The notes beneath the pieces were generated by a model. The model worked only from the letters and a program-made list of their open reading frames with translations, did not search any database and was not told where the DNA came from. This document shows, one piece after another, positions 1 through 44,749 of a stretch of DNA of 64,000 nucleotides; the stretch's first letter is position 1, and every line of letters starts with the position of its first letter. The DNA comes from Sipunculus nudus (taxonomy: Eukaryota > Annelida > Sipuncula > Golfingiida > Sipunculidae): assembly GCA_026874595.1 (NCBI GenBank), contig CM049309.1:17624576-17688575 (forward strand), in the 5' to 3' direction. Position numbers and translations under genes: made by a program.

Positions 1-520
1 AATTGTATGCATTAGACCTAGAATCTTCTAGGGAGGTTATGGGCAAATCTCTTTGAAAACCAGAAATAAGGTTATGGTGCACAGGCTATATTCTGTGCAC
101 TATGAGCCAAAAAAAATATGAATTTAAGCATCCAGACAGACAAGGTACCAATTGTATTTATTTTCCTTGGAACCTTCTGTTGTAAAGTCCAGGTAGATCT
201 CTGGGAAGTCTCCTTTGAATCCTGAAATTAGGTAACTTAATTCTTATAATACATGTCAAAAACAGTCAGATAGGGCATCAGTTGTATCCTTAAGCCCTAA
301 AATCTTCCAACACAACATCCAAGGAGATCTAGGCAAATCCCAAGGGAAACCTGTATGTGACAAGCCAAAAAAATGATCCTTCAATCTTTATTTTCCATCA
401 ATTTTTCAACATATTAACATTAGCCATAGGCTATTCACACAGAAAATATTTAACATTTATAATAAAAGAAAAGAGCACCCTGTCAAATTCAGCTGAGCAT
501 CCTGGCCCATGGGCCACTTG
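1..520 (+). repeat. Family A pearl/HINE-like element, 3' part
   Basis: The 5' end lies outside the window. Two or three degenerate core monomers are visible (at about 10, 160 and 290), each with the 'CCTAGAATCTTC' and 'GAAACC.GAAAT.AGG' blocks seen in the copies at 15-17 kb and 24.4 kb. The right end is diagnostic: CAGCTGAGC, then a perfect 14-bp palindrome TGGCCCATGGGCCA (503-516), then CTTG (517-520) followed by TT. Confidence 0.75.
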
Positions 521-751
521 TTTATATGTCCCTCTCCTCAGTTACCTAGGTCGAAATGAAACACTTAGTTTCCCCAGTTAAATGGCATTTAGTTAATCAT
601 TAAATCATACAAACTTGTCACTAGACCCCTTGTCATTTATCTGAAAGTTTGTTTTTCAGAACAAAAAGCTTGTCCTCCTATGCTTTCTGAAAAACGGTGC
701 TCTACTGTATAATATAACTCCTGCTGTGCCTTCTACACTATTGTTTTGTAG

Positions 752-954
752 CACACCGACAGAAGAGTACATGATATCTCAGGAAAACTTATAAGGAAAT
801 CATCTGAGCTCACCATTTTTCCCCTGGACACTCTGAAATTACAGGAGCTTCGCCATCACATGCCCGTTATAGAGAAGGCCATTGAAGCAGGCTGTGATAC
901 TACTCTGCCTTACTGTGGGCTGCCGTTCTACTACCCTGTCCTTCCAATGTTAAG
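752..954 (+). CDS. ERMP1: ERMP1/Fxna orthologue, coding exon (4th from the end)
   Basis: This exon encodes part of the C-terminal region of endoplasmic reticulum metallopeptidase 1, an M28-family multi-pass ER membrane protein. It reads 67 full codons plus two bases of a split Arg codon. A TAG acceptor precedes it and an AG|GTCAGT donor follows. The peptide contains VHDISGKLIRK and ends LPYCGLPFYYPV, which I match from memory to the ERMP1 block where a 'H.L.G.' segment leads to a 'CGFP.Y.PV' motif. The split codon AG+G joins to the exon at 7180. Upstream exons with the zinc-binding peptidase domain and membrane helices are outside the window, so catalytic competence cannot be judged. The upstream boundary depends on one acceptor and on total phase consistency: the four exons sum to 669 nt, exactly 223 codons. 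Confidence 0.88.
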
Positions 955-1309
955 GTCAGTGAGTGTGTTGTTTTGTCTGTTTATGTTATCTTTGTTATAT
1001 GCAATGGTCATGAAAAATTCTTTCTGTACTTCCTTACACGTAATCACTGCTTTCAACAGCAGGGTATTCTGGGTACTACCATTAAGGAATTGACAGATGT
1101 CAAGTCATGTTCAGAACCATTATAGCAGAGAATTGTGGGTTTCCAACTCTGCCAACTCTGCCAGGACAACTCTTACTGGAAGTACAGTCCAAGTCTGAGT
1201 GCCTTATGTTCAATTCTAAGTCCACCTTCATCTAATCTGAGTAATCTAGAAACCAAGCCCAAGTGCAAGTTCAGTAAATATTTTCTTTTTTTCCAATAAA
1301 AAATTGGAA
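955..1309 (+). other. Intron sequence, nothing recognised
   Basis: This is ERMP1 intronic DNA. A weak 'AGTCCAAGTCTGAGT' tract near 1190 resembles the hAT-like elements at 11.1 and 28.1 kb but is too short to call. Confidence 0.4.
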
Positions 1310-1895
1310 TTTTGTCTCCTCACCCATGGGGAGACATACATTGTTTGGTCTGTCATCAGCAGCAACTTCCATGTTACTTATTCTGAAGGTGATAACTTTT
1401 GAATGACTCAACATTTTTAATGAAATTTGAAATTTAATTTGTTTCTAACATTATGTAGAAAAAACTGTTCAAAAACAGACCTTCATAAATTAGGCCGAAT
1501 AGAAATTTTTAGTGAACCCAATAACCTTTGAGGTATTCTCATAGTTTTCCTAAAATTTGAAAAACTGATTGTATCAACCAAGTTCTTTGACAAGTTAGAA
1601 AACTGGTGACCTACCGGTATACCTGGATCCTCAAGGTCAAATCAGCTTGAATATAAATTATTTTTGAACACTATAATTTTTTAGACAACTCAGATTATTT
1701 TCATGAAATTTCTCCTGAATGTTTCTGCCAAAATCTTGGAAGTGTTAAAAAAAATCCTCTGACCTTGACCTTCATTTTCAAGGTCAAATCAGCTGAAATA
1801 GAAATTATTTGTGAATGTTGTGACTTATGAAGTAGTCTGCAATTTTTCCTAAAATTTGGGGATGGGAGGCCTGTAGGGAGGGGAGACATATGTTT
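1310..1895. repeat. Pearl-like element with about 148-bp core monomers
   Basis: The segment 'CAAGGTCAAATCAGCT' occurs twice about 148 bp apart (about 1633 and 1781). The left edge has a hairpin GTCTCC...GGGGAGAC followed by ATACATTGTTT. The right edge repeats GGGGAGACATATGTTTTT. Element ends are approximate. Confidence 0.5.
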
Positions 1896-3360
1896 TTGCA
1901 TTGCAAAAAAAAAAACCCATAGTCTAGTTAACATTACAATTTGAAATATCCAGTTGCATAATCATTTCAAAATGGCGGGCCAGTTTTGTACAGAACTACT
2001 GAGGTCTGATATTCGATTTAACATACAGACATTCGATATTACTTTTCATTCAAACTAATTTTTTTTACATCGAAGAATTATTTAAATTTAATTTTCCCAG
2101 TCTTTCAATTTCTGAGCAAATAAAGAAGAATTGAAACTGAGAATGGAAACTTATAATGAAAACTTTGATTTAAAGAGATCTGCTCCATCCTCATTGTCTC
2201 CTGAGACTAAGAGTATAAATAAGAAAGCTTCTTTATGAATGTGTTACTTACTATTACACTTCTTATGGTAACAGTTGGTGTTTGATTGAGTTATAACTGA
2301 CCATCCATGGGAAACACAGACTTTTTCGATTGCGGTCATGCTGTCAGCAATGGTTCTCAAGGTTTAAGTATGGCAAATGCACTCTTATGAGACTCTTATG
2401 GTCTCCAAAGATGTCAACATTGCCTTGATACAGTTTCACGGTAACAAGATCAGGGAATATGAGGGATTTCTATGGTCAGCAAAGAACAACTTATGGATTA
2501 TGGCCGAGGGATTACAGATTCCCATGGTTTGGGGCAGTAGCCTGTGTAGGTATCATCCAAGGAAGTGCTATTGATTCTCATGATCAGCCAAGCACTACTA
2601 GTTGTCTCAAATTCCTCTGATAAGGCACATCTGTAATCCGGCAGTCACGATCAACCAGGGAAGACCCCAACTGATGACGTACGCATGTACAGAAGTAGTA
2701 GGGACAAGCACAGACAATCACTGTGTCATTACTGCAATGAAGGTAACTTAACGTTCTGTCATTGGAGTGACCCTTCCCTGGCCACACCAAAGTGGTTTTT
2801 CAACAATTCAAAACTCCAGTTGAGCTTGATGGATGAAGACCTATACACAAGAGATAACGAGGGTTGATGAGGGCTGATGACGGACAAAGCGGACTCTCCA
2901 TGTATCACTCACCAGGGATCACCAGGGATGGTCCTTCCATGATGACTGGTGTTGAGATCCGTGACTTAGGCTTTATCCATGGGTAGACATTGCAACTGTT
3001 CTAAAACTCCTTCCCTATAGCCTCTGCTTGCCATAATATGGTTTGCTGGGTTCTGCTATCAGGTGACTGGCACTGTGCCAATAAAGTTTAGATCAATGAG
3101 AGCAGGCAGGAGGTGTCAAACTTAGACAACCGGCACATTGCAATACCCAACCCTCTGACCATACTTATCTTTCTGCCAGATGTCTTGTAACAAAACCCAG
3201 GAAAAGCAAGCATAGATTATGTGTAAGCAATTATAAAATGATTGCAGCATAGAACCAGTGTTTTTAATGGACTACGGCTAGACTTAGAGTTTGAGGGATA
3301 TAGAAATCATGCCAGGATACCAAATTTCGAACATTTGGTGCCAATAAGGGGCCCATTTTT
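1896..3360 (+). other. Intron sequence, nothing recognised
   Basis: The stretch 2370-2870 has a more balanced base composition than the flanks and short open frames, but no splice-bounded exon or known domain is visible. It could be old transposon remnant. Confidence 0.35.
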
Positions 3361-4038
3361 AGTAAACCTGTGAGCTTATGCGATGGTGTGGTGTCATTTG
3401 GTGTCCGTTGTCCGTCGGCTGTTGTCCCTCATCTGTATGTTAACCCATACTAGCCCATATTAATAGTCTGGATCTATTTATAGCTTTGGCAGACTGCCAA
3501 CTGTTTCAGATTATGCAACAGGTCAAGAATTCACAAAGTGCAGTAGCTTGAGCCTGCAATTTGTCACAGTTCACTCAAGGCAACTGCCTTTCTCACCTAA
3601 GCCTGGTCAGCCCAGAGCATCAAACTCAAGGGAAGTTTGGAGAATTGGCCTGATATTTTGACCTGACTATGCATCATTGATGGCTTTCTTGTTCACAAGA
3701 CAGGTGTCCCCACCTACAATGACTTTTGCACAGTGTATGTCCCTGCTTATTTCTCAGGAGAACTTTGACATATCAGTCTGAAATTGGGCATATGTATATA
3801 TCTCTTATAGCTTTGTTGTATACAATACTGGTGGTGCCAGCTACAATCATTTTTGTGTTGTGTGCACCTGTGCCAGCATTTCAGCAGTGATGTTTGTGTA
3901 ATTTTTTCTTGTTCAAAATGCTTAGTACTTGAACATATACATGTTACACATGTGCTTGAAAAGGAATGGTTGAGCATTGAAGCATTATACCTGGTGTAAA
4001 ACCGATTGCACAGGTTCACATTAGGCCTGTAGAACTTG
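3361..4038 (+). repeat. Family B pearl/HINE-like element, copy 1
   Basis: It begins at AGTAAACCTGTGAGCTTATG, has a degenerate (TCCG)-type tract at about 3400-3430, and ends CACAGGTT, TTAGGCCTGTAG, then CTTG (4035-4038) and TT. AACCTGTG at the left and CACAGGTT at the right form an 8-bp subterminal inverted repeat. The same ends recur at 4064-6901 and 10019-11110. Confidence 0.7.
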
Positions 4039-4063
4039 TTATTAATTATTTTTTCTTATTTTT

Positions 4064-6901
4064 AGTGAACTTGTGAGCTTATGGATGGCACAGTATTGTC
4101 GGTCCATGGTTGGCCGTGCATTAACCCATGCTATATCAAAAAGGGTTGTAGCTAGCATTGCCAAATTTTATGCAAAAAATCAGTCCTCTAAACAGCTCTA
4201 TCAGATTTAGCTTATTTTTATGCCCCCGCCACAAGACCTCAGCCCTCTTTGCCCTTAAGCATGTTCTCTGAGCCAACAGTCGCAATGCCACACAAAGCCA
4301 AGCAGAGAGCCGCAAAGGCCGCCACCGTCCATCCCGAGTCTGTGATCTTTCAGGAAAGCTACAGCATCTACAGCCGCAAAGCCAGAAGCAACCTACATTC
4401 CCTCTACTGATCCCAGCAGCGGAGACCCAGCCATGCCATGCAAGAGCCAAACCTGATCTTATGAACGACAGTGTTTCAAGACGCGAAGCCTTTATACTTG
4501 CGGTTTCGGCCATTGGACCGTATATTCTGTCCTTCTGTCATTCTGATATCAAACAGTTGTACAGACTTTTTTGCGCAATGCCTGCAGATATTGGCCTGAT
4601 TTTTGGTGTGTGCACAGATAATGACCAGTTATAGTTCGAATTTTGCGTCTCATCCCGGTTGACCTATTTTTTTGACCGTTTTACGGCTCCTAAACATAGG
4701 AAATTTCATGAAAAATAGAAATTTTCATGACAAATACACATGTATGGACTTTTATTCACAATGCCTGCAAATATTGGCCTGTTTTTTTATGTATGGGCAG
4801 ATAATGACCAGTTACAGATCGAGTTCATGTTTCGTCCCGGTTGACATTCTTTTGACCGTTTTACAGCTCCTGAACATAGAAAATTTCATGAAAAATAGAA
4901 ATTGTCATGACAAGCACACATGTACAGACTTTTTTTTGCAATGCCTGCAGATATTGGCCTGATTTTTGGTGTGTGGGAAGATAATTACCAGTTTGTTTGA
5001 ATGGTCCCAGTTTGATGAATTTTGGCTGAGATACAGGAAGCTGAACTTTGTCATTTGGCCAAAAAAGGATACTAAAATTACAATATCAGAAATGGCTGGA
5101 GCTATCATCACCAAATTTTATGGGGATGTAGGTCACATGATTCATATTTGAAATTGAGGTATTGGGGGTGCCACCTTCATCAACCTTTTTTGTACAAAGA
5201 TCATCAGTCATCAGTACATTAACCCATAATTTCTCAGGAATGGCAGGAACTAGCATCCCAAAATTTTATGCAAAACTCTGTCACATATCAAATGTTGTGG
5301 GATTGACCTTTTAAGTGGCACCACCTGCATTAACTTAAATTATACTGGGGAAAAGTTAAATAACCCTACAAAATTTTACAAATATTTCTAATTTGCTCAA
5401 GGCGGGGGCATTCGTGTCATTCCGACACATCTAGTTTTGCTATCTGCATTTACTTAGATTTTATAGGGAAAAAGCTATAAAAAAACTTTAAAAATCTTCT
5501 TCTATGAATTCAATATTGTTTAATGTTTCACAGAAATGATCCCAGAGATAAGCTCTCTCAAGTTTGTTCATATGGTTTGGGTTTAATGAATTTTGGCCTA
5601 GTTACAGGAATTTGAACTTGGTCATTTGGCCAAGTAAGCATACTAACATATCAATCTCAGAAACTACAGGTGCTAGTATCACCAAGTTTTGTGCAAATGT
5701 TGGTCATGTGACTCATATTTGAAATTGCAGCTTTTGTGATGCCACCTGCATAGACCCTGTTTTTTACGAGCAAAAACCTCATAATTTTAGCCTCTTTCAA
5801 CAGAATAGTGTTTAATGATGAAACTGTCAAGCTGAATGGTGTTAACAATTCACAAGAATTATCCTAGGGTAGGGTTCTTTCACATGTATAAGTATCGATT
5901 ATGTTCATTGATTTTTGGTTGAGTCATAGATAGCTAAAGTTGGTCTTGTGGCCATTAGGAAGCCTATTTCAAACTGACGGCTGCAAAAAATGATTCTTAG
6001 GAGGCCTTTGTTAAATTTTACTGAAATGATTTTTGGCAAAACGATTGAACCTTTAACAATAAAAGGACTGCATCTTTTATTATTCTGTACATTTTGATAA
6101 ATATATCTTATGAATATGTCAGCTTGAAAAAAAAATGTTGTAGCCAAAGTCTTTCTGTATGTGTAAACAAATTTACCAACAAGGCCAAGAACGTGTCTGT
6201 ATCTATAAATAGCTTGGCAGACTGCCAACTATTTCAGATTTGGTAACAAGCCAAAGGTCAGTCTGGATCTATTTATAGCTTTGGCAGACTGCCAATTGTG
6301 TCAGATGAGACAACAGGTCAAGAGTTAACTCAGTGCACCCAGGTACAGGTCAAGAGTTAACTCAGTCAAGCCAGGTGCAGATCAAGAGTCCACTCAGTGC
6401 AGTAGCTTGAGCCAGCAATTTGTTACTGTTCACTCGGGGCTACTGCCTTTCTCACCTAAGCCTGGTCAGCCCAGTGCATCAAACTTAAGAAGTTTGATGC
6501 ATTGGCCTGATATTTTGACCTGTCTATGCATCTTTGATGGCTCTCCCATTCACAAGACAGGTGTTGCCACCTACAATGACTTTTGCACAGTGTATGTGCC
6601 TGCTTTTTTCTCTAGAGGAATTTGATATATCAGCCTGAAATTGGGCAGGTTAATTCATATTAAAAAGCTATGTTGTAAACAAGACTAGTGGCACCACGTA
6701 CCAAAATTTTTGCACAATGTATGTGCCTGCATATTTCTCAGGACGGGATATCAGCCTGAAATTGGGCATATGTATACATGTCTGATACCTTTGTCGTATA
6801 CAAGACATGTAGGCCTACTTGAAAAGTAATGGTCCAGCATTTAAGCATTAGACCTGGTGTATAAACCATTGCACATGTTCACATTAGGCCTGTAGGCCTT
6901 G
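4064..6901 (+). repeat. Family B pearl/HINE-like element, copy 2, interrupted by family F
   Basis: The left end AGTGAACTTGTGAGCTTATG and right end CACATTAGGCCTGTAGGCCTTG match copies 1 and 3. The region 5437-6900 holds core monomers with 'GCCACCTGCAT' and 'TGGCAGACTGCCAA' blocks, the latter repeated at about 6213 and 6282. A separate 1.2-kb element sits at 4220-5434. Confidence 0.7.
4220..5434 (+). mobile_element. Family F Helentron-like (HINE) element nested in family B
   Basis: Perfect 11-bp subterminal inverted repeats ATGCCCCCGCC (4220-4230) and GGCGGGGGCAT (5401-5411) define the ends. A 3' hairpin GTGTC-ATTCC-GACAC (5414-5428) is followed by AT and CTAG (5431-5434), then host TT. Inside are a GC-rich segment (4230-4515) and tandem monomers of about 182 bp ('GCCTGCAGATATTGGCCTG' at about 4579, 4761 and 4944). 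Its later core is related to family B core. The layout is that of rolling-circle, non-autonomous elements of the Helentron/HINE type. No transposase is encoded. Confidence 0.75.
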
Positions 6902-7179
6902 TTTTCTTTACCAGTCAAGACAATAAGTGGAATTTGCCAGCCTGCTTAGAAAAATTGCTTAAATCTGAAAAAGGTGTATATGACCAACACAAATTTAGTC
7001 TGTTTTTCATAACTTTCAGAGTTTTTTTAGGGAATCTGTGCCACAGAACAAATTAACAACATTACCAAGACCTGGTCTTCATTTTAAAATAAATTGATCC
7101 AAGGAATATGAAAGCCACAGATCCATAGAACAATAAATGTTTTAGGTGTATGGCCTAATTTCCTTTCTTATTTTAACAG

Positions 7180-7292
7180 GACAACCTACTTAATACCAGC
7201 ACTACCTGTTGATTACCCAGGTGCAGATCTTCAGCTGATCAACCGGAAAATCTCCAGGCCTTTGGTGGAAAGGCTTATTTTTAATATAACAG
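7180..7292 (+). CDS. ERMP1: ERMP1/Fxna orthologue, coding exon (3rd from the end)
   Basis: The exon is bounded by acceptor TTTTAACAG and donor CAG|GTAAGG. It completes the split Arg codon of the preceding exon, reads TTYLIPALPVDYPGADLQLI and on to ERLIFNITG, and ends one base into a Gly codon finished at 9752. In ERMP1 proteins this stretch links the CGFP motif to a beta-rich luminal C-terminal domain beginning near 'F.I.GP.H'; that comparison is from memory. The reading frame is open only in the phase demanded by both neighbours. The intron before it is 6.2 kb and filled with pearl-like elements; the one after it is 2.5 kb and holds a C-type pearl-like element and a SINE. Confidence 0.9.
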
Positions 7293-7324
7293 GTAAGGCC
7301 TAATAGAAGCTTTTTTTTTAATTA

Positions 7325-8210
7325 GGGCCCCACTTGAAAAGCGGGTGCCCTATAGTAATCGACCTGTCGGTATGTCTGTCTGTCCGTCCTTCTGTTTGTC
7401 CATCCGTCTGTCCGTATGTCCACAAATTCTTTCCGGATGATAACTCCAGTTAGGATTGACGGATTGAGTTCAAACCTGAAATATGTATTAACCATCAATT
7501 ATGGAAGATCCCTATCGATTTTAGGGTCATGAGGTCAAAGGTTAATAAATTTATTCACAGTTTGGTGTTAAATTTTAGGTCCCTCTTTCAGCAGGGCAGA
7601 AATCATAATTGTAACCATAATTGTTTGTTCCAACTTAACAGTAGGATTGGTCCTCATGTCAACAGCAACGAGGCATGATATATGGTCATGGTCAGCCATT
7701 TTTCTGTAAGTTATGCGGTAAAAACCATTACTGAACACCTAGTAAGGTTGCACTCTCTTAGCAAACATGCATGCAAAAGGACACACATTGTTAACACAAT
7801 AACTCGTAAAAAGTATTTCATATAAGGTCCCCAGACTCACGGCAGTGATGGACCTTTTGATGAACTACATCATGTTTGAAGATGGGTGACCTTGATGGAT
7901 TTCCAAGGTCACAGAGGTGATAATGCTAAAATGATGTTAACCAAATAGCTCGCAAACAATTTGAGTTGACTAACACTCACTGAACTTGCACCAGTAATGT
8001 TTGTTATGAAGGGCTAGGTCAAGTTCGAAGATGGATGACCTTGACAGAGGCGATAATTCTTAAATGATGTCAATGCAATAACCCGCAAAGAATTTTATGA
8101 ACAATCAAATTTGTTTCTGCATAATAACTTCCCTAACATATGATGGATAGGATTCAAACATAAGATGTATCACCCATGGCCTAAGGGAGAAGCTTATTGA
8201 TATTTGGGTC
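7325..8210 (+). repeat. Family C pearl-like element
   Basis: The left end is a hairpin-forming GGGCCCCACTTGAAAAGC with GGGTGCCCTATAG, followed by a TCTG/TCCG tract (about 7370-7430). Core monomers of about 149 bp follow ('GATGG.TGACCTTGA' near 7882 and 8030). I could not find the right end, so the right boundary is approximate. Confidence 0.6.
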
Positions 8211-9003
8211 AGAAGGAAAAAAAAAAGTAATACACAGTTTGGTGTTCAGTTGCTGGTGTCTCCTTCAGAGGCCAGAAATGGATGAATTTTGAGTCACTAG
8301 TGTACAGCGGCATTACATTTTCACAGCATATTTTGTACAGACAATTTGAAGATTCCCCAGAAAAGTATACACTGGCCCAATGCACCACAGTGGCTCTCAT
8401 TTAGACCATGTTTGGACAAATCTATCTCCACTTCCAATATCTCAAGGAATTTGGACCTATTATAGTGACCATCAACAAATTTACATTGATATTCATATTT
8501 AGCCATTCTACACATCACAGCGCATCTGTAGACCCAAGGCGTAGAACAGCTGAATCTCAGTTCAAGGGAATGACCATTTTATCACTACTAACCAACAGCT
8601 GACTCTCTCTAATACTACAAGGTTCATGTACAGACTCAAGCCTCACATAAAATAAGGCCAATTCAACATACAAATACTGGAAAAATATTTGACACAGCCC
8701 AGCCAAGACTTAAACCAAGAATAATTGGCACAGGTACTACAGAAATACAGAAACTAAAAAAGCATGCAGTTCTTTTATATCATTATTTTGATAGCTTTGA
8801 ACATTCACTTTACCATATCTTTTCTTCCAGTTTATACATGTCAGCTGTTCTTTACAGGTTCTTTAATTTTCAAATATCGCTCTTTCAGCCCATGCTACCA
8901 AAGTACACCAAATTTTTAGTTCTTCAATTTATAATGACTGCATCTTTTGCAGGGCCCTTACTGACCTGTCAGTTTTCTAGTTTAATTCATTTTTGCCTTG
9001 TCC
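8211..9003 (+). other. Intron sequence, nothing recognised
   Basis: AT-rich intronic DNA between the family C element and a SINE. No exon-like or repeat signal was recognised. Confidence 0.4.
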
Positions 9004-9264
9004 TTCATGTCAACCAGGTGAACCACTTCTGTGGGTTCATGGTGTGTCATCCCCATTGCTCAGTCATAACACCAAGGAACTCCTGAAAGGCACACTTGCT
9101 TTTGAGTGAAACTTGACTGGAGGGCACAGTATCCCATTAAGCCTGGGGAATGCTCACCATGGGTGGGAGCCAACCACGAAAAATCTCACCGCTTGGGCTG
9201 AGATTTGAACTCAGGATCTTCCATCTTTTGAGTCCTGTGCTCTAACCCTGAGCTACAGAAGTTA
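9004..9264 (-). repeat. tRNA-derived SINE, copy 1
   Basis: On the minus strand the right edge reads as a tRNA-like head with a box A-like 'TAGCTCAGGGTTAGAGCAC' and box B-like 'GAGTTCAAATCTC'. The tail 'GTGAGATTTTTCGTGGTTGG' and the following 'CATTCCCCAGGCTTAATGGG' blocks are shared with copies at 18.1, 24.1 and 25.4 kb. It is not a functional tRNA gene, because the acceptor stem is not formed. Confidence 0.75.
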
Positions 9265-9751
9265 GTCATTTTTATGCATTTTATGAGTATGTTTTTTTTA
9301 ATGACAGCAGTCTAGCTTTCTGTGTATGGGCACACATTTGGTTCCAACTTAACATCAAGACATGATTACCTTAGATTTCTCAGGAGACTTGAATAGTGAT
9401 CCCTAGCATGGCATAAATTCTAAACATTAAACCTGGCCAGAAGTTCAAATTTAACATGCAAACTAGTTGTGATTAAATTTTCTTGGAAACCTTTGATCAA
9501 GTGACTGTGACATATTTTTGCTATGGCCTCTAATAATTTGTGATCAGCTAAGTGTCATAGCCAATGGGGTCATGTAAATGGTAATGAACTGAATTCTTTT
9601 TCAAAGTAATGATGATAGCTACAAGAATGAACTGAAAGACAAAAAAAACTTTAAATTGGGTCCTGGTGATCTGCATGCCCCCCCTTCTTCCCCCATCCTT
9701 TATTTCAAAAATTAAAAAAAAACTTTATTTCCTATTTTATTTTTATTTCAG
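9265..9751 (+). other. Intron sequence, nothing recognised
   Basis: Intronic DNA ending in C-rich and A/T-rich runs just before the 9752 exon. No further feature seen. Confidence 0.4.
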
Positions 9752-9933
9752 GTCCAAACCATGTGAATCTTTTCATTATTATGAAACCACACGTTAAACT
9801 AGTTCGATGGTCAATGGGTGATGGCCACCCTCTGCCAACACAGACGCCCCCTGGTGTGCCAACCACATACTTTGTATACTACTCGTATGGGCAGAAGCCT
9901 GACCATCCATGGCAGATTTGGCTGGAGGTTGAG
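9752..9933 (+). CDS. ERMP1: ERMP1/Fxna orthologue, coding exon (penultimate)
   Basis: The exon runs from acceptor TTATTTCAG to donor GAG|GTGAGT and ends in phase 0. It encodes GPNHVNLFIIMKPHVKL, then RWSMGDGHPLPTQ, YFVYYSYGQ and HPWQIWLEVE. These match the ERMP1 luminal C-terminal signature: 'GP.H....I.PH', 'WS.G.G.P', 'YFV.YS.G' and 'W.FWIEV'. This is the most diagnostic exon for the family call. The translation runs on past the donor for some 29 codons into a poly(T) tract, which is intronic read-through rather than coding sequence. Confidence 0.93.
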
Positions 9934-10018
9934 GTGAGTCACTATTTTTTTCATTTTTTTTTTTTTTTTGCCATCTATGTTATCTTTGCAATTATTCGAG
10001 ATGTGTTTTTTAAATTTT

Positions 10019-11110
10019 AGCAAACCTGTGACCTTATGTGATGATGCAGTATCATCTGTCTACCATTGTCCTTACATTAGAGTAATGCTATCACCAAAAA
10101 AAAAAATGTTATCAAAAAATTACTTACATGTCAAACTCTATCAGGTTGAGCTTATTTTTTTGGCTATCCGCATTGAGTTTGTTTTTGGAGGGTTCCAATT
10201 TGGTGATTTCTGGTCAAGTTACAGGAAGTTAAACTTAGTCATTTGGCCAAAAAACCATACTAAAATTACAAATAGAATTGACTGGAGCAATGATCACCAA
10301 ATTTTATGCAAATGTTGGTCACATAAGTCATATTTGAAATTCAGGTATTGGTGGTGCCACCTGCATTGACCTTATTTGTACAGGATTTGTTGGTCATCAG
10401 TAGTTTTACCTATAATTTCTCAGGAACAGAAAGAGCTGACATCCCAAAATTTTATGCAAACATCGGTCACATGTCCAATGTTGTGGGATTGAGCTTTTTA
10501 CGGGAAAAGGCTTGAAAACCTTTGACAATCATTTTGGCAACAGGCCAAGATTATGTCTGTATCTATAAATTGCTAGACAGACTGCCAACTATTTCAGATT
10601 TGGCAACAGACCAAGTTTCAATCTGTATGTGTTTATAGCCTTGGCAGACTACCAACTGCATCAGATTAGGCAATAGGTCAAAAGTTCAGTCAGTGCAGCC
10701 AGATACAGGACAAGAGTTCACTAAGAGCAGTTTGCTGCACCTGCAGATTTCCTTCAGTTCACTTGGGGGCAACAAACTTCCTCAGTTGAGTTTTGTTGTA
10801 CATAAGACTTGTGGCACCACCTACAATTGTTTTTGGGTTTCATTCATCTGTGCACATAGCTCTAGAGTGGTTTGAAGCCAGTATCTGCCTGAAATTTTGT
10901 ACGTCCATTCATCTTCAATAGCTTTCTTGTACACAAGACTGGTGGCACCACCTACAATCACTTTTGTGTTGCATTGTACATGTGCATATCACACTTGTAC
11001 TTGAAAAGTGATCAGGTACTTTTCTGATAATGGACAAGCATGTTATCAAGGAAGCAGTAAAACCTGATGTATATCCCATTGCACAGGTCGCATTAGGCCT
11101 GTAGGCCTTG
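10019..11110 (+). repeat. Family B pearl/HINE-like element, copy 3
   Basis: It begins AGCAAACCTGTGACCTTATG and ends GCACAGGTCGCATTAGGCCT, GTAGGC and CTTG (11107-11110), then TT. It contains the uninterrupted equivalent of the site where family F sits in copy 2 (near 10150-10170). Core blocks 'TTGGCCAAAAAACCATACT' and 'GGTGGTGCCACCTGCATTGA' are shared with copy 2. Confidence 0.75.
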
Positions 11111-11127
11111 TTCGGTTAATGAAAAGT

Positions 11128-11661
11128 TTGTGGAAGAGCTGAGTGCAGCAGGACATGGATGTTGTTAAGTCCACACCATCCAAGTCCGACTGGAAGTCTT
11201 AGTCCTGGCCACTTGAGTCGAGACCAAGTCCGAGACCTTAAGATTCTAGTCCAAGTCCACCTTCTTTGAGTTTGAGTCCAAGTCATTTGGAACTCTAAGT
11301 CCCATGTCCTAGTCTGAGTCTGATACAAGTTTTCTTATTAAAAGAAATTTGAATGGGATATTTTTGAGATTATCATTCAGATTTTACATTAGTTTACCAG
11401 TGCCCTTTACTTGAACATTTAATTACATTTAGCCCCTGATGCAGAGCTTATTTATGGTATGTATTGTCTTGTTTTTTCTGTTAGCAATTCACCAATTTGC
11501 ACAATCTTTATATTATATGTCACAGTGGTTTCTTTTCTTCTGGACTTGAGATGGACTCATCTGATACTTTGAGTGCTTACCTCTAAGTCCAAGTCCAAGA
11601 CCCTTGATTCTGAGTCCTTAAAGATGTGGACTAGAGTCCGGACTTGAGTACTACATTGCTG
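11128..11661. mobile_element. hAT-like non-autonomous element, copy 1
   Basis: Both ends are rich in GAGTCCAAGTCC-type repeats in opposite orientations. The right end reads GGACTTGAGTACTACATTGC then TG, matching the 'CAGTG-TGTAGTACTCGAGTCC' termini of hAT-like MITEs in inverse. The interior 'TTACATTTA' and 'TTTATATTATATG' blocks align with the copy at 28.05 kb. The left end is uncertain. Confidence 0.55.
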
Positions 11662-12460
11662 TTGGTGCATGCAGACAATTTTCAAAAAGATTTAACCCTC
11701 CAACAGTTTTAACTCTGAAACATTTCTGTGATTGTGCCCTGTATAAAAGTCATAAGTACAGGAATTCATAAGTTCAAACTCTGAAACAAGAAACCAATGA
11801 GTCTTGAATCTCTGTTTAAATGACAAGCAAACAATAATAAAAACTATATATGCATATATATGGAACAAACAGATGTAGCTTAAGGTCTGTAGATTTGTAC
11901 CCTGCTTATAATTACCAAAAGTACAAATATAACATACATAACCAGGAAAGTGAAAATAATTGTAATTTTTTTATCAATTTAAGAGATTTCAGATAGGAGC
12001 ATTCATAAACTGAAAATTGAAAATGTATGGCCTAGGCCTGATTTTTTTTAAAGCTTTCCCAGATTCTCGTTCACAAAAGTATCAGGAGATGGCAGCACTC
12101 TGAACTTTGTTGGAGGTTCGAATGACATGACCTTTCTTCATGGACTCTTCATATCAGGGTTTGTTATACAAGGTCTAAAAAAATGTAGATCAATACATGT
12201 ATGTTATTGTGTTCAGTGCATTGGTCTATCCTACTTGATTCTGACATCTCTGGAATTCCTTGAATTTGAATTGCTTGCTTGAGTATCATAGAATAGCCTG
12301 AAATTTGCAAAATCTCCCAGGGCTCATCATTTACTTTTGAAAGTACTTGCCTAGTTGGGCAAGTGCTATCTTGCTTTTTCTTGTTTTAAATAAATTTTTA
12401 TCCCCTACAAATAACAGTGGTTGTAGCCCCAAACAAAAAGTGTGTTCCACATAATTGTTA
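11662..12460 (+). other. Intron sequence, nothing recognised
   Basis: AT-rich intronic DNA. No exon, TIR or tandem repeat was seen. Confidence 0.4.
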
Positions 12461-12706
12461 TAGTCGCCAGCCTAGGTCTGGCGACTATAGGCTAATCGTT
12501 GTGTCTGTTTGTTAGTTTGTGTGTTTGTTTGTGGGTCTGTTTGTACACACTCTACAGGTCGCAGTTTTGCAGCAGTTGATTTGAAACTTACAGGAAAAGT
12601 GTAAAATCGGTAACTGTCCAAGCCTATTCTTTTTGGCAATGATCGGTCCTAGGTCAAGGTCACGGTTCTTAGCAAACGCTGGCGACTATGTCATGATTAC
12701 ATCTTG
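12461..12706 (+). mobile_element. Family D small HINE-like element (246 bp)
   Basis: Perfect 10-bp subterminal inverted repeats TAGTCGCCAG (12461-12470) and CTGGCGACTA (12679-12688) bound it. The 5' end folds as GTCGCCAG/CTGGCGAC with a 7-nt loop, followed by TATAGG and a TCTG/TTTG tract. The 3' end has a short ATGT/ACAT stem and then CTTG (12703-12706) and TT. Confidence 0.7.
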
Positions 12707-12791
12707 TTTTGCATGTTTTATTGCTTGTTACACAATAAAGGATATAATATAAACATGTTCATATGTTTTTCTTTTAATAATATTTTTCTTT

Positions 12792-13887
12792 AGTACCGTA
12801 TTTATTCCAGTTTGGCGATCCCTCTTATTTCTCGACCCCAAAAAATATTTTGAAAGCATAATTTCTAAAATGACTCTAATTTCTCGACTGCCGACGATGT
12901 TTTCTGTTGACGATGTTAAGGTGTAATGCCTTCGTCTCTCACGGGCACCGCAGTTTGTATCTGACTAGATTCTTATTACACTGGGCATCCACATCAAACT
13001 TGCTTCCAATAAAATTTATGAAGATACAAAGATGCGTTTTTCATGATATATAAACATGATAAAGCGTTCAAGAACCAAATGGGTGTCCATGACGAAGCAA
13101 ACTCAGTGTACCATTCCTGGTACGCACATGCCTCGTGTGCAATTCACGTGGGATCTTCAGCAATAATATTTACAAAATACTGCAAAGCACGCGTGGTGGA
13201 ACAACTGTGATACAGGTTAAACTGTCATCTTAGTTAAGTTTAAACGACCCCTGTTAGTTTTTGGATGGGTCACCGCGCGTACCAAACGGGGCCTGATCGA
13301 GGACACGTGAGCTAGGACCATTTCCGGTCGTATATATTCTAACGCGCCTTTACTTTCCTATATTTATTACGTATTATGCAAATAAAAGTTATCTGATAAT
13401 AGCCAGTTATTTTTTATAAAGTCTTCTTCCAACTTGATGCAGCTGCTTGTCCCTTTTCTGTCCGCCGATATCGCCGCCTGGCGGGTTAACTTGAAACAAC
13501 TGGTGGTTACATGAGTTGCCGTCTATGTCAAGTGATCGTACCTATACGCGAAGTAGTGATCATTTTGTAAAGTGATTGAGCTCAGTTTGATTAATCATTA
13601 GCGTACTGCGTATAATTCATGTGACGGTTGGAAGCCCATTTGTAGAAAATACTGTTAAGCTAACAAAACAAACTTATATACGACCAAATTATCACTCAAT
13701 TCATATGACAGCTCGAGTGTCAGAGTGGCTCTGCGTCTCTACGGGAGGTTATCAAACCGTATGCCTCTAATATCTCGACCACCGCAAATTCTGCATGAAG
13801 ATAATTTTCAAATATCCTCCATTATCTCCACCTCTGAGAAAATTAATTATTTTTAAGTGGTTGCCAAATTAGAATAAATACGGTACT
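12792..13887. mobile_element. TIR DNA transposon derivative (AGTACCGTATTTATTC ends)
   Basis: Perfect 16-bp terminal inverted repeats AGTACCGTATTTATTC (12792-12807) and GAATAAATACGGTACT (13872-13887) continue as an imperfect match (CAGTTTGGCGATCC against TAATTTGGCAACC). It is 1.1 kb long, and its interior is distinctly richer in CpG than the surrounding intron. No transposase frame is present, so it is non-autonomous. A TA or GTAC target site is possible. Confidence 0.7.
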
Positions 13888-14991
13888 TGTACAGATAACA
13901 TTATAGGTAGTTTAAGATAAAGAAGTATTACCAATAAGATTTGATTTCTCCAAGGAGGGAAATAATGACCTTAAGATGAGTCATGATTCAAGCCTTTGGG
14001 TAAAGGTTTATATTGGATCCACTTGCCCTGTTGAACAAGTATGTGCTGATTTTTGATTGCCCTACCACCATTTTCAAGAAATTTTACTTGCTCAGGACAA
14101 GGGGTTTACCATTTATATCAGGCTCTGTCTCCCTTGAAACTTCTAGAAAATTTAGGCTGGCAAAGTTCTTGAATACTGAATCTGTACATTAATGAACCAT
14201 TCTAAACAGGCCTCTACAGCCTTCAGGGGCTATTACAGGCTGTTCAGTGATCTTACTTGTCCTAATTCTTTTCAATTTTTTTGTCTCAGTCCTGTTTATC
14301 TTAATTTTTCTTAGACCTGCAACAGGTCAAGGAATATTTTTTTCTATCATAAATTAATACTCATATTTATCTTATTTCAAAAGGGCCTTGTATAACATTT
14401 TGTTTAATCTGGTTAATTACTCTAGCCCTCAGCAGCCTAATCAAAGTTGAGCAGAGGTCAGTAAATATTTGCTAGATGTGGTTTTTAACACCTACTGCCT
14501 TTGATTGGGTGCACTTATTAATTTGCATCACTTATCACTGCTTATCCCTGTACATTTGCTTGAAATTAGACCATCTTTTGTACAATCTTTTTATATTTTT
14601 TTATTATTTTAGATTTTGGATAAACTAAATATCAGTTCACAGTTTTTAATTTTTGATAAACGATTTTTTAGATAAGTTGTGTTAAGATAAGTGATACTCT
14701 ACTGTACATTTTTTCAACACGTGTGCTATTGCCAGTCCAGCATATTATTGTACTATTCAGGTGCTATTCAACATATTTTCTTCACTTATATCATAATTTA
14801 ATTAGTAAGAATAACATTTTCATAGTGCTAGTTTTGTTTATATGTATTTTTTCTGACTTACCCCCTCCCCCCCCCCCCCCCCAAAAAAAACATACCAGTT
14901 TGCTGAATCTGTCATACATTTTCGGTAATGTGTTTACAGAAATACAGATAAAATGAACATGGAAAATGTCTGCTGAGGACAATTTGTTATT
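13888..14991 (+). other. Intron sequence with poly(C)/poly(A) tract
   Basis: No gene signal. A run of C residues followed by A residues lies at about 14863-14890. Confidence 0.4.
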
Positions 14992-15696
14992 AGCTCAGCT
15001 GACTGTAAGTCATCTGAGCTATAGGGATCACCTTTTGTCCGTCGTCCGTCCGTCCGGCCGTCTGTCCGTTAACAGGGCACAAATCGTAACCGCTAGAACT
15101 GGAATCTTCTTACTTGACATCCTGGGAGGTCTATGGAAATTCTCCTTGTAAACCTGAAATAAGGTCACTGTGACCTATATTCTTCGAGCTATGGGGTTCT
15201 GAAGTACCCCCCAGAATAATGGAAAATTTGATACAAAAGCTCAAGTATCTGAACAACTAATGCATTGATCATCATGATTTTTTTTGCATGGATATTGATC
15301 ATGGAGTGTTTCATCAGTTTCTGCAGACTGGTGGCACCACCTGTATTTTTTCGATTTTTACCAATATTTTTCTCTATTTTTGAGACCTCTTAAGATGCGG
15401 CCATCTGTTAACAGGGCACAAATCGTAACGACTACACCTAGAATCTTCTCTCTTGACATGCAGGGAGGCCCATAAAAATTCTCTTTGGAAACCTGAAATT
15501 AGGTCTCTGTTACCCATAACCTTTGAGCTATGGGGCTCCGAAGTACCCTCCAGATTAATGGAAAATTTGATACAAAAGCTCAAGTATCTAAACAACTATT
15601 GCAATGATCACCATGATTCTTTGCATGGATATTGATCATGGAATGTGTCATCAGTTTCTGCAGTATGGTGGCGCCACCTGTATTTTTTCAATTTTT
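14992..15696 (+). repeat. Family A pearl/HINE-like element, partial 5' copy
   Basis: It starts with the family A 5' hairpin AGCTCAGCTGACT...AGTCATCTGAGCT, then ATAGGGATCACC and a (TCCG)n tract (15040-15070). Two core monomers follow ('TTAACAGGGCACAAATCGTA' at about 15068 and 15408). It runs directly into a second family A 5' end at 15697 without its own 3' end. Confidence 0.75.
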
Positions 15697-17745
15697 AGCT
15701 CAGCTGACTGAAAGTCATCTGAGCTATAGGGATCACCTTTTGTCCGTCGTCCGTCCGTCCGTCCGGCCGTCTGTCCGTTAACAGGGCACAAATCGTAACC
15801 GCTAGAACTGGAATCTTCTTACTTGACGTCCTGGGAGGTCTTTGGAAATTCTCCTTGTTAACCTGAAATTAGCTCACTGTGACCTATATTCTTCGAGCTA
15901 AGGGGTTCTGAAGTACCCCCCAGAATAATGCAAAATTTAATACAAAAGCTCAAGTATCTGAACAACTAATGCATTAATCACCATGATTCTTTGCATGGAT
16001 ATTGATCATGGAGTGTTTCATCAATTTCTGGAGATTGGTGGCGCCAGCTATATTTTTTTATTTTTTACGATTTTTTTTCTCTACTTTTGTGATCTTTAAA
16101 CATTTGGTCATCTGTAAACAGGGCACAAATCATAATGACTGGACCTAGAATCTTCTGTCCTCACCTCCAGGGAAGCCCATAAAAGGTCTACATGGAAACC
16201 CGAAATAAGGTCCCTGTTACCCATATTCTGTGAGCTATGGGGCTCTGAAGTACCCCCCAGAATAAAGATTTGGTCATATATTAACAGGGCACAAATCATA
16301 ATGACTGGACCTAGAATCTCCTTTCTTGACATGCAGGGAGGCCTTTGGAAAGTCTCTTTGGAAATCTGAAATTAGGTCTCTGTTACCCATATCCTTCATG
16401 CTATGGCTCCGAGAATAAAGATTTGGTCATCTGTTAACAGAGCACAAATTATAATGACTTGACCTAGAATCTCCTTTCTTGATATGCTGGGAGGCCCCTG
16501 AAAAGTCTCCTTGTGCACCTGAAATTACATCTCTGTTACCCATATCCTTCATCCTATGCGGCTTTGAAATACCCCCCAGAATAAACATTTGGTCATCTGT
16601 TAACAGGGCACAAATCATAATAACTGGACCTAGAATTTTATTTTTTGACATGCTGGGAGACCCCTGAAAAGTCATCTTGTAAACCTTGAAAATAGGTGTC
16701 TGTTACCCATATCCTTCATGCTACAGAGCTCCATAGTACCCCAATGAATATTGGATGATTTTATACAAAAGGTCAAGTTTGGAAAAAGTATTTCATTGTA
16801 TCGCCAGACATAGTCTGGAGATACTATGGTTTAGGCACGGTTGCGCCGCCGCCGTCGCAGAGATTTCTTTTGGACACAATAACTCAAACAATATTTCAAG
16901 GATCTTTTTCAAACTTGACACATTCATAGATATAGGTGAGAGGACGAAGCCTATTTAAAATGGGGTCATGACCTCAACTAGGAGAGTGACCTTGACCTTG
17001 AATAGATCCATTTTTGGGGAAAATCACACAAATTCTTAAATATCTCAAGAAATCTTTCATGGATTTATCCAAAAATCAAGTTGGACAAAGATCTTGGATA
17101 GTGTTGGTTACACTAAACAAAAAGGACATACTCAAACGGCAAATTATTCCCGAGGGTTTCATTTTCGCGATTATCTCCCATTCGCGAATATCGCGAAATT
17201 AAAACCCTCGCGAACAAAAAGGCAACCACAGTATACTGTGAGCATTATAAGTCAAACAGTAATGGACAGATTTCTTTCATGTTATGCATGTATATAGATA
17301 TGGTTTATGGAATGAGGTATATTTAATTTTAAATTTAATTTTAAAATTTAATTTAATTTAAATTTTTTTTTTAAATTTAATTTTTTTTTTCAAATGTTGG
17401 ATATTTTGGAATGCAGTTTATTTCTCAAACAAGTTACTCCAAACATACATATACAACTCAATACATCATTAAATATATACTTCTATTTATACATAACCTT
17501 TTACATAACAATTGCCTTCACTTTAAATATTCCTATATTATGTACAAATGTTTCTCACATTCATTGCTAAAATACAAATACATCACATTATATCAACAAA
17601 ATACCACAAAACCTCATTTGTCTGGCGATACTATGGCACCAGCGGTGCCAAGAAATGTCTAGTTCAAATTTGACATTCAGATGATAAAATTACTTTTGTC
17701 AATGTCTTCCTGGTCAGCTGAGCGTCATGACCCCTGGGTCACTTG
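15697..17745 (+). repeat. Family A pearl/HINE-like element, complete ends, interrupted by family E
   Basis: The 5' hairpin is at 15697, followed by a (TCCG)n tract and at least five core monomers marked by 'AACAGGGCACAAAT' (about 15779, 16117, 16282, 16433 and 16600), about 150-165 bp apart in the later part. The right end is GTCAGCTGAGC, then TGACCCCTGGGTCA and CTTG (17742-17745). Family E sits inside at 16801-17662. Confidence 0.8.
16801..17662 (+). mobile_element. Family E Helitron/Helentron-like element nested in family A
   Basis: It starts with TC after a host A and ends CTAG (17659-17662) before TT. Subterminal inverted repeats are TCGCCAGAC (16801-16809) and GTCTGGCGA (17620-17628). 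The 5' end folds (CCAGAC/GTCTGG). A 7-bp 3' hairpin TGGCACC-AGC-GGTGCCA (17634-17650) lies 8 nt before CTAG, the classic rolling-circle terminator arrangement. The interior 17310-17600 is extremely AT-rich. Confidence 0.78.
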
Positions 17746-24357: not shown

Positions 24358-24385
24358 TACACTGTAAAATCTTTTGTATTTTTTT

Positions 24386-25265
24386 AGCTCAGATGACTGT
24401 AAGTCATCTGAGCTATAGGGATCACCTTTTGTCCGTTGTCCGTCCGGCCATCTGGGCGTCTGTCCGTTAACAGGGCACAAATCGTAACCACTGGACCTGG
24501 AATCTTCTTGCTTTACATCCAGAGAGGTCCATGAAAAATCTCCTTGGAAACCAGGAATTAGGTCTCTGTTACCCATATCCTTCGAGCTATGGGGCCCCAA
24601 AATACCCCCCCAGAATAGTCAAAAATTTCATACAAAAACTTCAATATCTCATTACTACATCACTGATGATCATGATTTTTGGCATACATATTAATCATGA
24701 GATGTTTCAACAGTTTCTGCAGACTGGTGGTGCCACCTGTATTTTTTCGATTTTTTAAGAATTGTTTTCTCAATTTTTGAGATTTTTAAAGATGTGGTTA
24801 TCTGTCAACAGGGAACAAATTGTAACAACTGGACCTAGAATCTTCATTCTTGTCATGCAAGGAGGCCCATGAAAAGTGTCTGTGGAAACCTGAAATTAGG
24901 TCTCTGTTACCCATATCCTTCAAGCTATAGGACTCCAAAGTATCCCTCAGAATTATGGAAAATCTGATACAAAAGCTGAAGTATTTGAACAACTAATCCA
25001 GAGACCACCATGCTTCTTTGCATGGATATTGACCATTAAGTGTTTTTATTAGTTTCTGCAGACTGGTGGAGGCACCTGTATTTTTTTAAAGTTTTCGCAT
25101 TTTTTCTCTATTCTTGAGATATGTTAATACAGACACAATCTCAGCCTGTTGGTTAATCTGTTTGATGCGTCAGTTCAATGGTTATATACTACCATTCAGA
25201 TTGTAAAATTTCCTTATGCAAATCTCTTCCCAGTCAGCTGAGCATCATGACCCATGGGTCACTTG
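24386..25265 (+). repeat. Family A pearl/HINE-like element, complete copy (880 bp)
   Basis: A perfect 13-bp hairpin AGCTCAGATGACT/AGTCATCTGAGCT with a 3-nt loop (24386-24414) is followed by ATAGGGATCACC, a short TCCG tract and two core monomers ('CAACAGGGAACAAATTGTAA' in the second). The right end is GTCAGCTGAGC, TGACCCATGGGTCA (25248-25261) and CTTG (25262-25265). The 5' GCTCAG.TGAC and 3' GTCAGCTGAGC are inverted relative to each other. Confidence 0.85.
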
Positions 25266-37200: not shown

Positions 37201-39695
37201 GACTGGGCAACTGGCACCCTGAAAGGGCAGTTGGGCCAATCTGTGAAAGCGGAAATAGTTTGTGTACTTGGAAATTTTTGGTCAGTTGGGCTCGTCTTAG
37301 GTCGAAAAGAAATGTGTTTATGTCAATGGCAAAACAAAGAATATGTCGTCTTGTACACAAGTTTTACGGTATAAATTGAAATCTATGTAGGCCCAACAAT
37401 TCCCGCATTTGCTGTTTCGCTGCACTAACCAGGACATCGAAACATCAGGTTTTACAAGGTTAAAAACAATTCTAACATTTATGGATGTTTTAAATTTGAT
37501 CACACATTTTGTAAATGTATATTTTATCTTTTCCCTAAACAACTGAGATATATGTTGTTTGCTTTACCTTCATGTGGTTGAAATTTTTATTAATTATTTT
37601 TTATTTATGTAATATTGTTTAAATTGCAGTATGTTGAAACAGTCATTATGATTAAGTACAAATTTAATTCGTAAAGGACCAGGTAATTATTTCTTCCTAG
37701 GAAATCACAAAAAAAAAGATATTGGCCAGCTGGACGTACCACTATGTAAATTCTTTCCCATCAGTGAGCTAGTTTGCTAGGCATTAGACGGTGTTTTACA
37801 AAACCATGTAAGTGTTAACAAGGCAGTGCACGTTTGGTTTGGACAGGCTGCAGCGTTCTGTGTATGTATATACTGTATTCTACAACAAATTTACAATTTT
37901 GTATTCTGTATGAAGTTTAGTCACCCCTTGTGTTCTTAAAAGTTTACATGTGTACGCCATAATTGTAAATTTTGCAAGGAAACATGACAACAAAACGAAT
38001 AATTGTCAACTCGGTCACTGCTATTAACATCACTGTTATAATAATATTTGTACCTGTTAGGAACAATTATCTCCTTACCTAGTGGTCAGACGCTGCATTC
38101 GTTCTAGAACGCCTTCCACTTAACCACTGCTTGCTACAGCAGTGTTTGCTAGGTTTCGCCACCAGGTGGTTGGCGCAGGGCCAAGAATGCCTCGACCAAA
38201 GACAGCGGGTGTGTCCATCCCCAGAGTGTTCCTCCGGTTTTTAACCACTGCTTAAGGAGTGTAAATAGAGACCGAGTGGCTTTTTAGTATGTAAGTCATA
38301 ATAAAAAAAAAGATGTAACATATTCAGACAATACGAAGATGAGCGTTACTGTGGTGTCATATATTGAGGTAACTACAAAACTAAAGTTGATTAAATTGTG
38401 TATAATTACATTGTAATTTGAGCAATGCTGGTCAGTAGATGTATTTTAATATTACATTGCTTACATGACGTTTATAACATGTGAAAAATATTATGTTCAT
38501 ATATTATTTGTTAATCAGGAATCTTTTATCAATTGTAACCTTTGTGTTATGTCAATCGACGTATTTAAAATGAGTTCTGTTGTGACTTACTGTTATTGTT
38601 AAATCCGTATCATACCAACTTAAATGTTAAAAATTAAGAAACATCATGACTTTAACTGTAAAACTGTGCGATAATTTAGAAGTTACGTTAAACACTTCAC
38701 GCATACGGTTGTCTACTCAAACCATGGCCATATATCCTCTCCCTGCAGGGCGTGCTTTTTCAGTTTCAAGAACTCCGGCCATTGTTTTGTTATCTTGAAA
38801 ACGTGTGTAGAGGCCATCAGTGTATTTTCTAGGATTCCCTCCTATTTTTACTTTTAATTGTTATATATTTTAGGTATGTCATCGTTTAGCTGCAGTGAAC
38901 TAACTGATTATCCTGTAATGGTTGTCGTTGAGAATGAGATGACTTGCTCAGTGTTTCAAATCTGGTTGTTACTCCCATTTACACTTTTTATACCAAGAAT
39001 GACTAAACCTAAAAATTTGCCTTTATATAATATGTTTAGCGGTAAATATTTATTTTTTCCATCACTGTCAACATTGTTGGGCATTTGATCCCTATCCGTA
39101 GTAAAGCTATCTTAACCAAGTCTCTAGTTAAATGTCACCGGGGAAAGCCAGGCACCATGCAGAAACGGAGGAAATTAACCAGCCCCGGGCTTATAGGTTT
39201 GTCCCAGCTTCTACCCCTGCCCAATGTTTTCATGTCAAATATCGGGCAAATAATCCCCGATAGTGGTAACATTTTTATAAATACCAGTCACCAGTGCCTG
39301 TTAAGTGCAAGTGTCACAGTATCCAGAAAAGACTAATTGTCTTGTATGTTTTTGTGTAATCTATCCCTGGTAGCCTTAAAAGCACCTTGCAGGTTAACCA
39401 AAAAGCACGTAGGTTATAATTCTCTCAAACTATCCTACTTGATCCTACAGTTTGTGTCTCGGTCAAATTTTCTCCTTTTTTACTTCAAATTATACTTTTT
39501 CACTACTTCCTTCAGCTTTTTTTTTCAACTTGTAGTTTCAAAATGCCGTGAATTACTGTTAAAGTTTGCTTGGCCAATTTGGAACATGTTTATGTCATAC
39601 AGGAGGCTTTCATGATGTATGGTTTAATAAAATGCAGGTACTGTCTAAGCACCGTATCATGATTGTTTAACTGTGTTCTTAAAAAATATTTTGTT
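34209..39695 (+). other. Intergenic AT-rich DNA, nothing recognised
   Basis: No exon, RNA gene or repeat family was recognised across 5.5 kb. Open frames here are short and of AT-rich, non-coding character. The patch 38060-38280 is GC-richer but unidentified. Confidence 0.4.
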
Positions 39696-39983
39696 AGCTC
39701 AGCTGACTGAAAGTCATCTGAGCTATAGCGATCACTCTTTTTCCGTCAGTCTGTCCGTCCGTATTTACATAGGCCAGCTGACTGCATTCAAAAAGGCTAG
39801 ATTTCATGGGAATGGCTTGATATATCATCATAAAACTTTTTATCCTTGTTCATTTTGAAGAACTTTAATAGTTACAGTTGAATGCATGGGGTTACCATCT
39901 ACTAAATTTGGCAATCAGATCGTTAAATTTATTTTTTTAAAGTCTTCCTAGTCAGCTGGGCGTCATGACTCACGGGTCACTTG
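39696..39983 (+). repeat. Family A pearl/HINE-like element, internally deleted (288 bp)
   Basis: It retains the 5' hairpin (AGCTCAGCTGACT/AGTCATCTGAGCT), a short TCCG tract, and the 3' end GTCAGCTGGGCGTCATGACT with CACGGGTCA and CTTG (39980-39983) followed by TT. The core is reduced to a single fragment. Confidence 0.8.
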
Positions 39984-44662: not shown

Positions 44663-44749
44663 TTAGAGCATCCACTACTGATCACACCAGGTTTTGAGAC
44701 ACTAGACAGAATCATAGCTGAGAAATTACATGATGTCATTTTATGGTAA

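Follow-up and report, generated by a model that had tools for sequence, protein, structure and literature searches.

In a 64-kb stretch of Sipunculus nudus DNA (hereafter the window: all 64,000 nucleotides of C4:17624576-17688575, inside the 1.43-Gb assembly that was searched for copies), six families of repeats, A to F, are probably Helentron-associated interspersed elements (HINEs), that is, non-autonomous Helentrons moved in trans by full-length Helentrons, with the ends being recognized by their sequence. The element ends, their T-rich targets, a clean empty site for family F, the tandem cores, and the occurrence of the family A 3' end on autonomous Helentrons were all observed directly. 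A sequence-only reading of this DNA had linked the families to bivalve pearl elements and HINEs, and that link held: the elements combine subterminal inverted repeats (subTIRs) having a complementary 5' arm, a 3' palindrome (a poor one in D), a GTCC-like tract, tandem cores, and T-rich targets without duplication, and the many Helentron-type Rep genes found in the genome back it further. The elements and element parts in the window are as follows.

1..520, + strand: family A, further copy, 3' part, truncated by the window edge; many genome copies
3361..4038, + strand: family B copy 1; 3' stem lost
4061..6901, + strand: family B copy 2, with F inserted
4217..5434, + strand: family F; 11-bp subTIRs, 180-bp tandem core, B-like module, 3' hairpin, CTAG then TT; this copy has lost the inverted arm at its 5' end
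7322..8980, + strand: family C; 5' hairpin, CTATAG, GTCC tract, and at the 3' end AGGGCCC, hairpin, CTAG then TT
10019..11110, + strand: family B copy 3; has no insertion at the F site and served as the empty-site control
12460..12706, + strand: family D; 5' hairpin, 10-bp subTIR, weak 3' hairpin, CTTG then TT
14991..17745, + strand: family A copy 1; 5' hairpin head, tandem core of about 166 bp, 3' subTIR, hairpin, CTTG then TT
16798..17662, + strand: family E, nested in A copy 1; 13-bp subTIR, 5' and 3' hairpins, CTAG then TT
24385..25265, + strand: family A copy 2; CTTG then TA rather than TT
39695..39983, + strand: family A copy 3, short
44615..44670, - strand: C-like 5' module with a GTCT tract; element body about 43954-44670
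45070..45129, - strand: A-like 5' head plus core, the core extending down to about 44750
45508..45600, + strand: A-like 5' head, isolated, with a GTCC tract
49291..49346, - strand: C-like 5' module, with a 145-bp tandem array downstream on the minus strand (48769-49138)
50458..50490, + strand: A-type 3' end, isolated and decayed (GTTG)

A copy 1 has two 5' heads (14991 and 15696) and a single 3' end, as would be left by a nested insertion lacking its tail or by a two-headed element. The interior of F (4990-5312) holds a module that is 82% identical (264 of 321 aligned bases) to the interior of B copy 3, the F and B ends being different; thousands of candidate places for the B module were found in the genome.

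The inverted-repeat pairs quoted for A, B, D, E, and F in the sequence-only reading are all present and exact. They start at 14993/17713 (A), 3365/4009 (B), 12461/12679 (D), and 4220/5401 (F); the E pair is exact at 16801/17620 as quoted, and its full 13-bp repeat lies at 16798/17619. Like HINEs, the window copies therefore carry subTIRs at both ends, of 11 bp in A, 13 bp in E, 11 bp in F, 8 bp in B, 10 bp in D, and only 7 bp in C. An 11-bp B repeat was obtained only by combining copies, and as such is absent from the + strand. In a blind scan, both strands were searched for an inverted repeat, a hairpin, and CT(T/A)G followed by TT, with this plan alone as input. The top three of 19 hits were E (42.8), A (37.1), and F (36.3). 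These were the three hits in the window that scored at least 34, compared with a mean of 0.07 per shuffle over 30 shuffles (best shuffled score, 35.7). B, C, and D did not stand out in the scan and are credible only through their copies; the C 3' end, taken alone, scored at background level (28.8). When 34 permuted terminators served as decoys in the real window, 6 of 1439 sites reached 34, compared with 3 of 74 CT(T/A)GTT sites, and part of these decoy hits were simple repeats or long palindromes. E, A, and F score above the shuffles. The proposed shared terminal architecture is real and of an ordinary kind.

None of 200 shuffles equalled the 5' hairpins reported for A, C, D, and E. No 5' hairpin is present in the window copies of B and F; its absence from F is true of the window copy but not of the family, inasmuch as two relatives (L038 and L074) carry a full 5' hairpin together with a GTCC-like tract. 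At the 3' end, shuffles did as well as the real sequence in 2 of 200 cases for E, 13 for F, 42 for C, 47 for B, 87 for A, and 152 for D, whose 3' hairpin is poor (-0.6 kcal/mol). Those of A, B, and C are unremarkable as single sequences, and the first B copy is without the stem. When 22 distinct A ends were compared, one stem pair was A-T in 15, G-C in 7, and broken in none. The number of paired cells and the covariation score exceeded 500 of 500 shuffles, whereas the count of two-sided pair changes did not (489 of 500); kinship among the ends inflates these covariation scores.

Copies elsewhere in the genome (for which all counts are lower bounds) supported the 3' ends of B, C, and D and both ends of E. 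Three copies of B with both ends are in the window, and all 8 of the listed genome places reaching the B 3' end stop at window positions 11111-11113, the query having run to 11140. Of the 39 other D places that were scored, 27 stop exactly at 12706, the G of CTTG; of the 12 exceptions, two stop at query base 245 and ten at 254-256. Both ends of E were recovered in 25 of 30 loci (window copy included), with CTAG then TT in 25 of 25 and TTG before the repeat in 25 of 25. For F, the 180-bp core is widespread, but just two further places, one with a partial match, were listed for the 3' end. The 3' ends previously given for B and D and both ends of E thus have the backing of genome copies, but the list had omitted the C 3' end, which we assign to 8951-8980 (AGGGCCC, hairpin, CTAG then TT). 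All 39 other scored C places stop at window 8980-8985, although the C query itself ended at 8985, so that this stop tests only a few bases; 27 of the 39 are near full length (query base 5 or less to 1663 or more). Tandem cores are present in A, B, C, and F as described, but are not restricted to them, since most scored E copies in the genome repeat a unit of about 180 bp. As HINEs do, the families lack coding capacity: no stop-free stretch in the window exceeds 168 amino acids, and Pfam, applied to 30 of the 127 window stretches of at least 70 amino acids, recognized no family in the 20 that came from the portion with the repeats. An intact autonomous element within the window was rejected on the same 168-residue maximum.

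Insertion sites were examined for target duplications of the kind typical of DDE transposons. B copy 3 is uninterrupted, within a run of T's, at the place where F sits in B copy 2, and when F is removed, B copy 2 aligns to B copy 3 without any target duplication. The empty-site comparison for E inside A was not clean; the E junctions show a match of at most 3 bases in 18 of 25 copies. Across ten junctions, direct repeats were at most 4 bases in eight and reached 7 at C and B copy 2; the 7-base repeat of B copy 2 lies off the exact ends, and the end of A copy 2 was taken one base short in this set. Among T-rich control junctions, 33% reach 4 bases and 1.6% reach 7. F at its empty site and E with TT after every CTAG therefore have the T-rich insertion without duplication described for HINEs, and not the target site duplication of DDE-type miniature inverted-repeat transposable elements (MITEs).

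The genome search, in which 150 of 195 candidates were scored, gave at least 143 Rep matches, a number of them in frames above 2000 residues. Rep motif 2 was recognized in 27 of 30 fetched loci, and 25 of these 27, including L038 and L040, have the serine by which PMC4067079, in the part drawn on here, sets Helentrons apart. Pfam searches with pieces of four loci found Rep in L040 and L017, and PIF1 plus an endonuclease (Exo_endo_phos) in L071, in two frames, and in L073, in one frame. A Rep with the Helentron-type motif 2, a PIF1 helicase, and a C-terminal endonuclease, the features that define Helentrons, were thus all found. Pieces of L079 resemble those of L071, and the Rep of the L079 element was matched in the genome search. 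Most of the 30 fetched loci form one nucleotide-similar group (L013-L034 plus L039). L017, of this commonest lineage, encodes Rep in one open frame together with DUF6570 and a domain resembling OTU proteases.

In the 30 Rep loci themselves, the only end of a window type was an F-type 5' end, which belongs to a HINE beside or in that element: at about 1-472 of L038, an F-type HINE with the full 5' hairpin lies at the C3 Rep element, on the opposite strand. When downstream DNA was examined for eight Rep elements, an A-type 3' end was found in five: on C3 (L071), on C7 (L075 and its segmental duplicate L078), on C17 (L079), and on C10 (L082). The two C7 copies were rejected as independent evidence, their flanks being included in the 99% identity. 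Between C3 and C7, identity is 97% over 2 kb and homology is lost at the A-type end (98% in the final 60 bases before it, 33% in the 60 beyond); the alignment ends two bases before the terminus because the last bases differ (CTAG versus CTTG). Between C17 and C10, identity is 98.4% over 1.5 kb, and the copies part one T past CTTG (97% in the 60 bases up to that point, 32% in the following 60). An A-type end would fall within 3 bases of a given break by chance about 3 times in 10,000 (at 5 ends per 128 kb of strand). These two A-ended lineages share 68% protein identity in the helicase and 54% in the endonuclease, and are 27-38% identical to the commonest lineage. What the window families were found to share with autonomous Helentrons is the A 3' end, on two lineages; the search for Rep-helicase elements bearing the same repeats found neither the A 5' end nor a partner for B to F.

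Several further features were seen at these loci. At L071 3881-4059, the 3' end of the C3 Helentron is directly followed by the 3' portion of an A element, which has an end of its own, an arrangement that insertion of the Helentron into an A element would produce. On the reverse strand of L081, an A-like 5' site near 1695 was considered as an autonomous 5' end and rejected, the DNA upstream of it being the same in C10 and C5. The A-ended Helentrons on C17, C10, and C5 are located at C17:35630192, C10:71600289, and C5:42912065. From about 1763 on the reverse strand of L081, a segment whose head resembles that of E (67% match) lies inside the A-ended Helentrons. Five other places match the first part of this segment at 96-98% identity, and numerous additional ones start at the same point, a pattern expected of a HINE family.

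The sequence-only reading had called the end sequences unrelated and had proposed one amplifying machinery that recognizes structure rather than sequence, the inverted repeats having changed independently. In 30 end comparisons (500 shuffles each, P values uncorrected), D and E were related at both 5' heads (5 of 500 shuffles as good) and 3' tails (10 of 500), and 5' heads were alike between A and B (0 of 500), C and D (4 of 500), and A and C (6 of 500). No likeness was found between the 5' heads of A and D (109 of 500), B and C (94 of 500), or B and D (337 of 500). The likeness in the A-B, A-C, and C-D pairs sits just inside the 5' end, and a motif derived from these heads occurs at seven window places, compared with 0.7 per shuffle and at most 3, a comparison that is partly circular. 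By these alignments, the shared 5' plan is in part shared sequence. The other pairs are not alike, and "independently changed" is too strong because the D and E ends and several 5' heads are related. The proposal of one machinery reading structure also went unsupported: the A 3' sequence itself is present on two Helentron lineages, at the very point where paired copies cease to match, and the fetched loci belong most often to a third, distant lineage.

That all families might nevertheless be mobilized by one Helentron machinery, reading hairpins, a CTATAG-like motif, and CT(T/A)G then TT instead of the inverted-repeat sequence, is in our view unlikely. Six families do follow a common plan that includes CT(T/A)G then TT, a CTATAG/ATC/GTCC module is common to the 5' heads, and a stem pair of A has changed on both sides; however, there are several Helentron lineages, as distant as the A-ended and the commonest ones, two of them carry the A sequence itself and not merely an A-like shape, and the D-E and 5' likenesses may reflect common descent. 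It is equally doubtful that a single Rep lineage moves several families, with new ones arising by swapped inverted repeats and cores and with F, through its B-like module, as an intermediate. Slightly less probable again is that the A-type 3' ends at autonomous elements are inserted or fused HINE copies, and so say nothing of the partner. A-type ends occur at high density (5 in the 64-kb window), a second one lies near each of L071 and L082, and a weak A-core match precedes the L079 end. Against this, two copy pairs in different places lose homology at the A end, a coincidence hardly expected at the chance rate given above, and the A-core matches of L071 start only past the break. Finding GCTCAGCTGAC on autonomous 5' ends would contradict an insertion origin; no autonomous 5' end was found. 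Least probable by far is a DDE-type MITE identity for some families, C being the likeliest, with short inverted repeats and only a resemblance to HINEs. TTTAATT stands at both C junctions, a length seldom reached in the T-rich controls, but a 5' hairpin, CTATAG, and a GTCC tract are all present in C, most of its places are near full length, and the F site and most E junctions show no such duplication.

Several observations weigh against the preferred reading, in which HINEs are moved by Helentrons that recognize end sequence. No listed end was found within 6-7 kb in three of the eight Rep elements (C7:31578448, L072; C11, L073; and C13, L080); these include both elements of the commonest lineage (L072 and L073, 99.5% identical over 7 kb) and the C13 element, which is 89% identical in protein to the A-ended C17 element. 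Neither a 5' end for the autonomous elements of A type nor an autonomous partner for B to F was found, and the weak A-core match upstream of the L079 end might mark an old fused HINE. In the window, B, C, and D fall below the published 11-bp subTIR rule, and the 7-base TTTAATT is flush with both ends of C (7315-7324 and 8981-8987). TG rather than TT follows the L071 end, and TA follows A copy 2. Two further A stem pairs are broken in 6 and 4 of the 22 ends, and two of five A covariation measures were not above shuffles.

If HINEs are moved in this way, Rep-helicase-endonuclease proteins from full-length Helentrons elsewhere in the genome would mobilize them. Rep would nick at the element start, and one strand would be displaced and copied; the end would be marked by the 3' inverted repeat together with the hairpin and CT(T/A)G, and the single strand would be joined between two T's. 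Each end family would be paired with particular Helentron lineages that read its end sequence, and new families could form when satellite-like repeats or parts of other elements fall between a usable pair of ends.

The families are a new set of members of an element type already described. As set out in the relevant part of PMC7492417, the oyster Crassostrea gigas has 11 HINEs of this anatomy, related and unrelated families together, with no autonomous partner identified. They resemble the present families in the 5' subTIR with a complementary inverted repeat, the GTCY/GTCC microsatellite, the 3' subTIR plus palindrome, the tandem core (mostly 140-180 bp in oyster), and the T-rich target without target site duplication; the likeness is one of described anatomy. 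They differ in that the oyster HINEs are tied to no autonomous Helentron in that account, whereas here the A 3' end is on two lineages. PMC4067079, as far as drawn on, defines HINEs, sets at least 11 identical bp in the subTIRs as a family rule, and describes seven families in the mite Metaseiulus occidentalis. HINE-Mo/Helentron-Mo and DINE-1 share with our families the palindromic subTIRs, the 3' palindrome, an unmodified TT target, and a Rep/PIF1/endonuclease partner; the mite HINEs, however, are simple deletion derivatives that have 84-99.9% in common with their partners, and here only the 3' end region is shown to be shared. The bivalve pearl family (CvA, CvE), DTC84, and MgE are likewise modular, with up to six core repeats of about 160 bp (as outlined in PMC7492417 and PMC5139131), a likeness of layout. 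Because unrelated families occur together in oyster group 3 (PMC7492417, in the same part) and seven families occur in the mite, several unrelated HINE families per genome are a published pattern; the main addition here is the family A 3' end on two Helentron lineages. HINEs spread satellite-like repeats through mollusc genomes, and the oyster account, in that part, leaves their movers unresolved (PMC7492417). With many Rep matches and the A 3' end on two lineages, recognition by sequence versus shape becomes testable.

The families lie in and around introns of ERMP1, which is coded within the first 10 kb of the window (Pfam ERMP1_C in stretches 752-1090 and 9670-10017), between and after the ERMP1_C exons. 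Pattern scans of viral contigs with A (head and tail), D, B, and a generic 5' module gave no match, and the F pattern matched two (L001 and L002); pattern scans of prokaryote genomes gave no match, and a literature text search with six end sequences returned only papers with unrelated titles. Between D and A, the inverted ends CCGTATTTATTC (about 12796) and GAATAAATACGG (13871-13883) match by eye at a spacing of about 1.1 kb, and may belong to a terminal-repeat DNA transposon. A minisatellite with units of 15 and 30 bases occupies 21829-22544, and a mir-31 microRNA precursor lies at 59117-59199 on the minus strand (Rfam RF00661, 52.6 bits against a gathering score of 51).

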